DNA of 36,949 bases from Chloroflexota bacterium. GTDB taxonomy: Bacteria; Chloroflexota; Dehalococcoidia; Lucifugimonadales; UBA3495. Where the stretch lies: assembly GCA_002710215.1 (NCBI GenBank), contig PAJQ01000001.1, forward strand, positions 1 through 36,949, written 5' to 3'. Shown piece after piece: positions 36,230-36,837 of the stretch. The position numbers and the translations under genes are program-made. Numbering within the stretch: position 1 is the stretch's first letter; every line of letters begins with the position of its first letter. The notes below the pieces were generated by a model that made no database searches, had not been told where the DNA came from, and worked only from the letters and a program-made list of their open reading frames with translations.

Positions 36230-36275
36230 AGAAAGAACCGTCGAGATGAGACCAATCATCTCGACGGTTCTTTCT
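36230..36275 (-). terminator. Terminator of the tRNA-Val gene
   Basis: The two 20-base arms (36230-36249 and 36256-36275) are perfect complements around loop GACCAA. On the minus strand the stem ends in T-rich sequence (TTCTTTCTTTCC), as expected for an intrinsic terminator 12 bases after the tRNA. Confidence 0.88.
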
Positions 36276-36287
36276 ACGGTTCGTAAG

Positions 36288-36364
36288 TGGTGGGCGGTAG
36301 TGGACTCGAACCACTGACCTCTTGCGTGTCGAGCAAGTACTCTAACCAACTGAGCTAACCGCCC
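36288..36364 (-). tRNA. tRNA-Val(GAC), CCA encoded
   Basis: The minus strand folds fully as a tRNA: acceptor GGGCGGT/ACCGCCC, D-arm GCTC/GAGT with GG in the loop, anticodon stem CTTGC/GCAAG, variable loop AGGTC, T-arm AGTGG-TTCGAGT-CCACT, discriminator A and encoded CCA. The anticodon loop is TCGACAC, placing GAC at 34-36. A35, C36 and A73 fit valine identity. It is odd that position 33 is C, not the almost universal T. The promoter TTGACG-17-TAGACT lies just upstream and a strong terminator just downstream. Confidence 0.95.
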
Positions 36365-36373
36365 CTCAATCGC

Positions 36374-36402
36374 AGTCTATCAAGCGCCTAATAGGGCGTC
36401 AA
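36374..36402 (-). promoter_or_regulatory. Promoter of the tRNA-Val gene
   Basis: On the minus strand TTGACG (36397-36402), a 17-base spacer and TAGACT (36374-36379). Transcription would start about three bases before the tRNA 5' end. Close to consensus. Confidence 0.75.
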
Positions 36403-36525: not shown

Positions 36526-36837
36526 ATGGCTGACTATCTTTACGTTGTACAAATGGACATTCCCGCCGACAAAGAGGCAGATTTCAACCGCATATATGAC
36601 ACCCAGCACGTGCCCAACATAATAACCGTTCCGGGCGTCAGCGGGTGTACCCGTTTCAAGTTGGAGTCTGCCGATGTGGACGGGGTACCCACGTACCTTG
36701 CTCTTTATGAGATTGATTCTCCGGATATTCCCCAGTCCGCTGCCTGGGTTGCTGAGTCGGATAAAGGAGATTGGGCAAGTCAGATCCGCCCCCACACTTC
36801 CAACCGCACCCACTTGATCTTCAAAAAGGTCGGCTAG
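36526..36837 (+). CDS. Small dimeric alpha-beta barrel-type protein
   Basis: A 103-residue protein. MADYLYVVQMDIPADKEADF, then NRIYDTQHVPNIITVPGVSG and CTRFKLESADVDGVPTYLAL make the strand-helix-strand order of the ferredoxin-like dimeric barrel (ABM/EthD-like). The 'DTQHVPNIITVPGVSG' part, with a His before a PGV turn, is common in such proteins, some of which are monooxygenases or ligand-binding proteins. The exact family is not clear to me. AAGGAG lies about 11 bases before the ATG, a little far. It has its own promoter at 36421-36450. Confidence 0.78.
   Translation: MADYLYVVQMDIPADKEADFNRIYDTQHVPNIITVPGVSGCTRFKLESADVDGVPTYLALYEIDSPDIPQSAAWVAESDKGDWASQIRPHTSNRTHLIFKKVG

Follow-up and report, generated by a model that had tools for sequence, protein, structure and literature searches.

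Position 33 of a tRNA is taught to be an invariant uridine, on which the turn of the anticodon depends, and the tRNA-Val(GAC) gene of a Chloroflexota contig (PAJQ01000001.1; the whole stretch of 36,949 nucleotides analysed here is called the window) carries a cytidine instead. Does such a gene encode a working valine tRNA, and is its C33 confined to one lineage or a recurrent form of this isoacceptor? ARAGORN and Rfam agree on a single tRNA in the window, a valine tRNA with anticodon GAC (Table 1), whose score of 67.3 bits against RF00005 (cut-off 29 bits) is that of a full cloverleaf. Valyl-tRNA synthetase identity is set by A35, C36 and A73, as known from E. coli, and the gene has all three together with the GAC anticodon, as a bacterial elongator tRNA-Val(GAC) should; the U33 that also belongs to this class is replaced by C33. 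On the minus strand the loop reads TCGACAC inside a perfect 5-bp stem (CTTGC/GCAAG), with position 33 falling on a G of the plus strand, and the C33 named in the first-pass annotation is thereby confirmed by the sequence and by the ARAGORN run. The minimum-energy fold is the same in structure and energy whether residue 33 is C or U, and an alternative fold arising from C33 was rejected on these grounds. The codons concerned, GUC and GUU, account for 317 of 704 valine codons in a mechanical count over 23 long open reading frames of the window.

Table 1. Coordinates of the tRNA-Val(GAC) gene, its parts and its flanks in the window, and of one C33 gene from another family of the same order.
Feature	Position	Strand	Basis
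tRNA-Val(GAC) gene, CCA encoded	36288..36364	-	ARAGORN and Rfam RF00005
Anticodon loop U32 C33 G34 A35 C36 A37 C38	36326..36332	-	Sequence and ARAGORN
C33 replacing U33	36331..36331	-	Sequence; kept in 43 of 45 family genes
Anticodon stem 27-31 (CTTGC)	36333..36337	-	Complementary to GCAAG at 36321-36325; no variation in 19 family genes
Anticodon stem 39-43 (GCAAG)	36321..36325	-	Invariant in 19 family genes
Sigma-70-like promoter TTGACG-17-TAGACT (predicted)	36374..36402	-	Scan for the consensus: 9 of 12 positions agree (chance expectation 0.2)
Perfect 20-bp hairpin (inverted repeat) after the tRNA gene, where the transcript may end	36230..36275	-	Sequence
tRNA-Val(GAC) of G079, C33, CTGCG/CGCAG stem, U38	L243 1092-1168		

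The stems, CCA end, promoter and terminator of the gene had been described as perfect. This stands for the anticodon stem and the CCA, and a predicted promoter, imperfect in three of its twelve consensus positions, ends 9 bases upstream of the gene; it does not stand for the terminator, as the hairpin that follows the gene lacks a clean T tract and received no terminator score in the terminator scan. The inverted repeat, which directly follows the tRNA in the window, also occurs in L036, from the same-genus genome. There, too, the tRNA adjoins a small open reading frame of 103 aa (window 36526-36837, plus strand), which is divergent from the tRNA and matches Pfam DUF4286 weakly, below the cut-off.

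Within the family, one matching gene was found in 45 of 50 genomes, and C33 is present, in single copy, in 43 of these 45, which excludes a chance occurrence. T33, the finding in relatives that would have spoken against C33, is limited to two of them, G008 and G021. A search of 40 related genomes returned the identical 77 nucleotides in five genomes of other species, one from the same genus (G001) and four from other genera (G005, G010, G017 and G019); the same-genus copy has no changes and lies within a 732-bp block of 91% identity. The same search yielded 19 family genes with the same anticodon arm. Across these 19 the arm is invariant, and three substitutions in the acceptor stem and the T stem come with compensating ones at the paired position (columns 6/68, 50/66 and 51/65). 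We therefore take the gene to be a functional tRNA under selection, in agreement with the earlier view that it is not decayed, and a tRNA pseudogene was rejected.

The remaining tRNAs of the lineage keep the usual base. G054, a closed relative (one contig, 99% complete), encodes 46 tRNAs, 45 of them with T33; the exception is its Val(GAC), which has C33, is the only GAC tRNA of that genome and is accompanied by Val(UAC) and Val(CAC). A second, normal GAC gene, which the first-pass annotation had suggested looking for, is thus absent from this closed genome, and a lineage-wide loss of U33 was rejected. The window's own genome, a draft of 86% completeness in 76 contigs, gives the same picture: 32 distinct tRNAs were found in it, of which 31 have T33, and tRNA-Val(GAC) is the exception. 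On contigs C18 and C53 of this draft (G000) lie two near-identical Pro(TGG)-Arg(CCG) tRNA pairs (L014/L021 and L012/L022) that differ by one base, in tRNA-Pro, and may be a duplication or a trace of strain mixture.

Among the matches listed, those from elsewhere in the order and class have TTGACAT (T33) on a CTGCG or similar stem. The exception among them is G079, from another family of the same order, in which C33 (TCGACAT) occurs with the ancestral CTGCG stem and the other changes are missing; this gene is a possible intermediate or a separate gain of C33. A phylum sample of 201 genomes contained a non-T33 gene in five, namely the window gene and four genes in three families. The arms of these four are different, from which we infer that C33 arose several times within the phylum. 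The CTTGC...ACGCAAG arm of the window gene (36321-36337) is the Val(UAC) or Val(CAC) arm in some related families (L054, L058 and L060), and a sister valine tRNA is a possible template from which the new arm was copied.

C33 extends well beyond the Chloroflexota. Scanning a species-level genome collection for the C33 pattern gave at least 118 further tRNA-Val(GAC) genes with C33, and ARAGORN called all 118 of the matches listed tRNA-Val(GAC); chance pattern matches were thus rejected, as was, by the scan itself, an oddity private to the family. By the taxon given for each record, the matches listed come from Planctomycetota, Bacteroidota, Actinomycetota, Spirochaetota, Bacillota, Pseudomonadota, Aquificales, Chlamydiae, Patescibacteria and others. 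The rarity of C33 implied by the first-pass annotation does not hold for this isoacceptor, and U33 is not a defining base of Val(GAC), since so many other genes of this type have C33. The frequency varies between phyla: about half of the Val(GAC) genes in a sample of 129 Planctomycetota genomes have C33 (72, with 62 T33 genes), compared with 4 of 104 in Bacteroidota, and C33 is rare in Pseudomonadota, where it occurs in at most 3 of 299 genomes, a count that includes the centre and one doubtful match. Wherever the anticodon of another tRNA on the C33 loci could be read, position 33 is T (51 of 51, among the matches listed), the sister tRNA-Val(UAC) keeps U33 almost always, and as a control, non-T33 Val(UAC) matches appeared in at most two of the same 129 Planctomycetota genomes. 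Of 41 such genomes with C33, 39 have only C33 pattern matches, and two add a T33 match. Collectively, at the level of gene sequences, the tRNA-Val(GAC) with C33 that recurs in many unrelated bacteria gives the impression of an ordinary tRNA in a functional, tuned version.

C33 is coupled to base 38. In Planctomycetota, A38 is found in 51 of 72 C33 genes versus 1 of 62 T33 genes, and after collapsing identical sequences in 36 of 55 versus 1 of 38 (p about 2e-10); in Bacteroidota the figures are 3 of 4 versus 0 of 100, all of these counts ignoring shared ancestry apart from the collapsing of identical sequences in Planctomycetota. C33 is tied to particular stem ends as well (Planctomycetota). 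The commonest 32/38 pairs in the 118 listed global genes are U32 with A38 (56) followed by U32 with C38 (40), and the window gene has the latter pair, U32 and C38, not A38.

How might such a loop work? A cytidine at position 33 loses only the N3-H contact. With this bond of U33 alone lost, the loop would still turn, as the 2'-OH of residue 33 bonds N7 of residue 35 if that residue is a purine (PMC5372741), and the bond can remain here because residue 35 is A35. The weaker turn would be balanced, or used, within an alternative tuning of the loop comprising U32, C33, A38 or C38 and new stem pairs, and this tuning would set ribosome binding of the GAC anticodon. The 32-38 pair is reported to tune A-site affinity for each anticodon, and a base pair at 32-38 to lower it (PMC11194099), so that the effect of A38 may be a further weakening instead of compensation. 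In a yeast tRNA-Gln the U33C change caused a growth phenotype that was connected by the authors with impaired decoding or charging (PMC3664417), and this counts against a working C33. Decoding of GUC and GUU with a changed loop, one of the options of the first-pass annotation, is nevertheless the most likely role of the gene as judged from its sequence, and we consider it probable that it is the single working tRNA for these codons in the lineage and that C33, with the changes at position 38 and in the stem, gives the anticodon loop an alternative tuning. For the wider proposition, that the U-turn base of Val(GAC) is free to switch and that C33, gained many times together with changes of base 38 and the stem, has been selected as another means of setting codon binding, we see the case as evenly poised.

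The main rival to a tuned loop is relaxed constraint. Val(UAC) can also read GUU and GUC in many bacteria, and all four valine codons in enteric bacteria; because Val(UAC) can share its codons, Val(GAC) would tolerate a weaker loop, and C33 would be near-neutral drift. A Val(UAC) is indeed present alongside in the closed genome, and drift would give just such a scatter of C33 over phyla with separate arms, but it accords poorly with an anticodon arm that is invariant in 19 family genes and with the ties of C33 to A38 and to particular stem ends. Nor has it touched the other four-box tRNAs with G34 in G054 (Ala GGC, Pro GGG, Arg GCG, Gly GCC, Leu GAG and Thr GGT), all of which have T33, and we regard relaxed constraint as possible though rather doubtful. 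Alternatively, editing of C33 to U33 or heavy modification of the transcript might leave a normal mature loop. C-to-U editing of tRNAs exists in other systems and genome data alone are compatible with it here, but the enzyme would have to recur in many phyla for one isoacceptor, and editing does not predict the A38 preference of C33 genes; given this coupling and the scattered recurrence, we hold it to be very unlikely. A mistake in sequencing or assembly, or a gene copy in decay, which the draft state of the window's genome might suggest and of which the first-pass annotation had considered the former, has a negligible probability, error being rejected by identical or near-identical C33 genes in independent relatives (43 family genomes, including one-contig assemblies) and decay by the compensated stem changes.

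If the wider proposition on Val(GAC) holds, the "invariant" U33 would become an anticodon-dependent rule. One isoacceptor with C33 in many genomes and U33 in close relatives offers a ready test of the need for U33, and the same set of genomes tests the trade-off among loop bases 32, 33 and 38. In the open-access literature, which is what the search covered, we found no description of C33 in bacterial Val(GAC), and its novelty is provisional. Saks and Conery reportedly described an anticodon-dependent conservation in 2007.

Several tRNAs depart from U33 in other settings. Eukaryotic initiator tRNA-Met carries C33 (PMC9023262) and resembles the window tRNA in combining it with a purine, A35, yet it is an initiator that enters the P site and not a bacterial elongator. 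The tRNA-Cys(GCA) of Sulfolobales is an elongator in which a single clade has kept C33 (PMC7668247); it is archaeal, differs in amino acid and anticodon, and has C35 rather than a purine. Candida tRNA-Ser(CAG), with G33 or C33 (PMC8645108), is likewise a working tRNA with a base other than U33, but it is tied to codon reassignment and leucylation, and there is no sign of either for the window tRNA. Bacterial tRNA-ProX, with A33, is a natural bacterial tRNA without U33 (PMC11415595); it is a dual-identity, mistranslating tRNA with A34, whereas identity and anticodon of the window tRNA agree. Assignment to this type, which combines A33 and A34 with a Pro body and a foreign anticodon, was rejected, as the window gene has C33 and G34 and a body that matches its Val relatives. 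In G008 and G021, the members of the same family with T33, the body of the gene is close to that of the window C33 gene, and with the canonical bacterial tRNA-Val(GAC) with U33 the window tRNA shares body, anticodon, A37 and CCA, the difference lying in the arm, which reads CTTGC-TCGACAC-GCAAG in the window and CTGCG-TTGACAT-CGCAG in the canonical U33 form.
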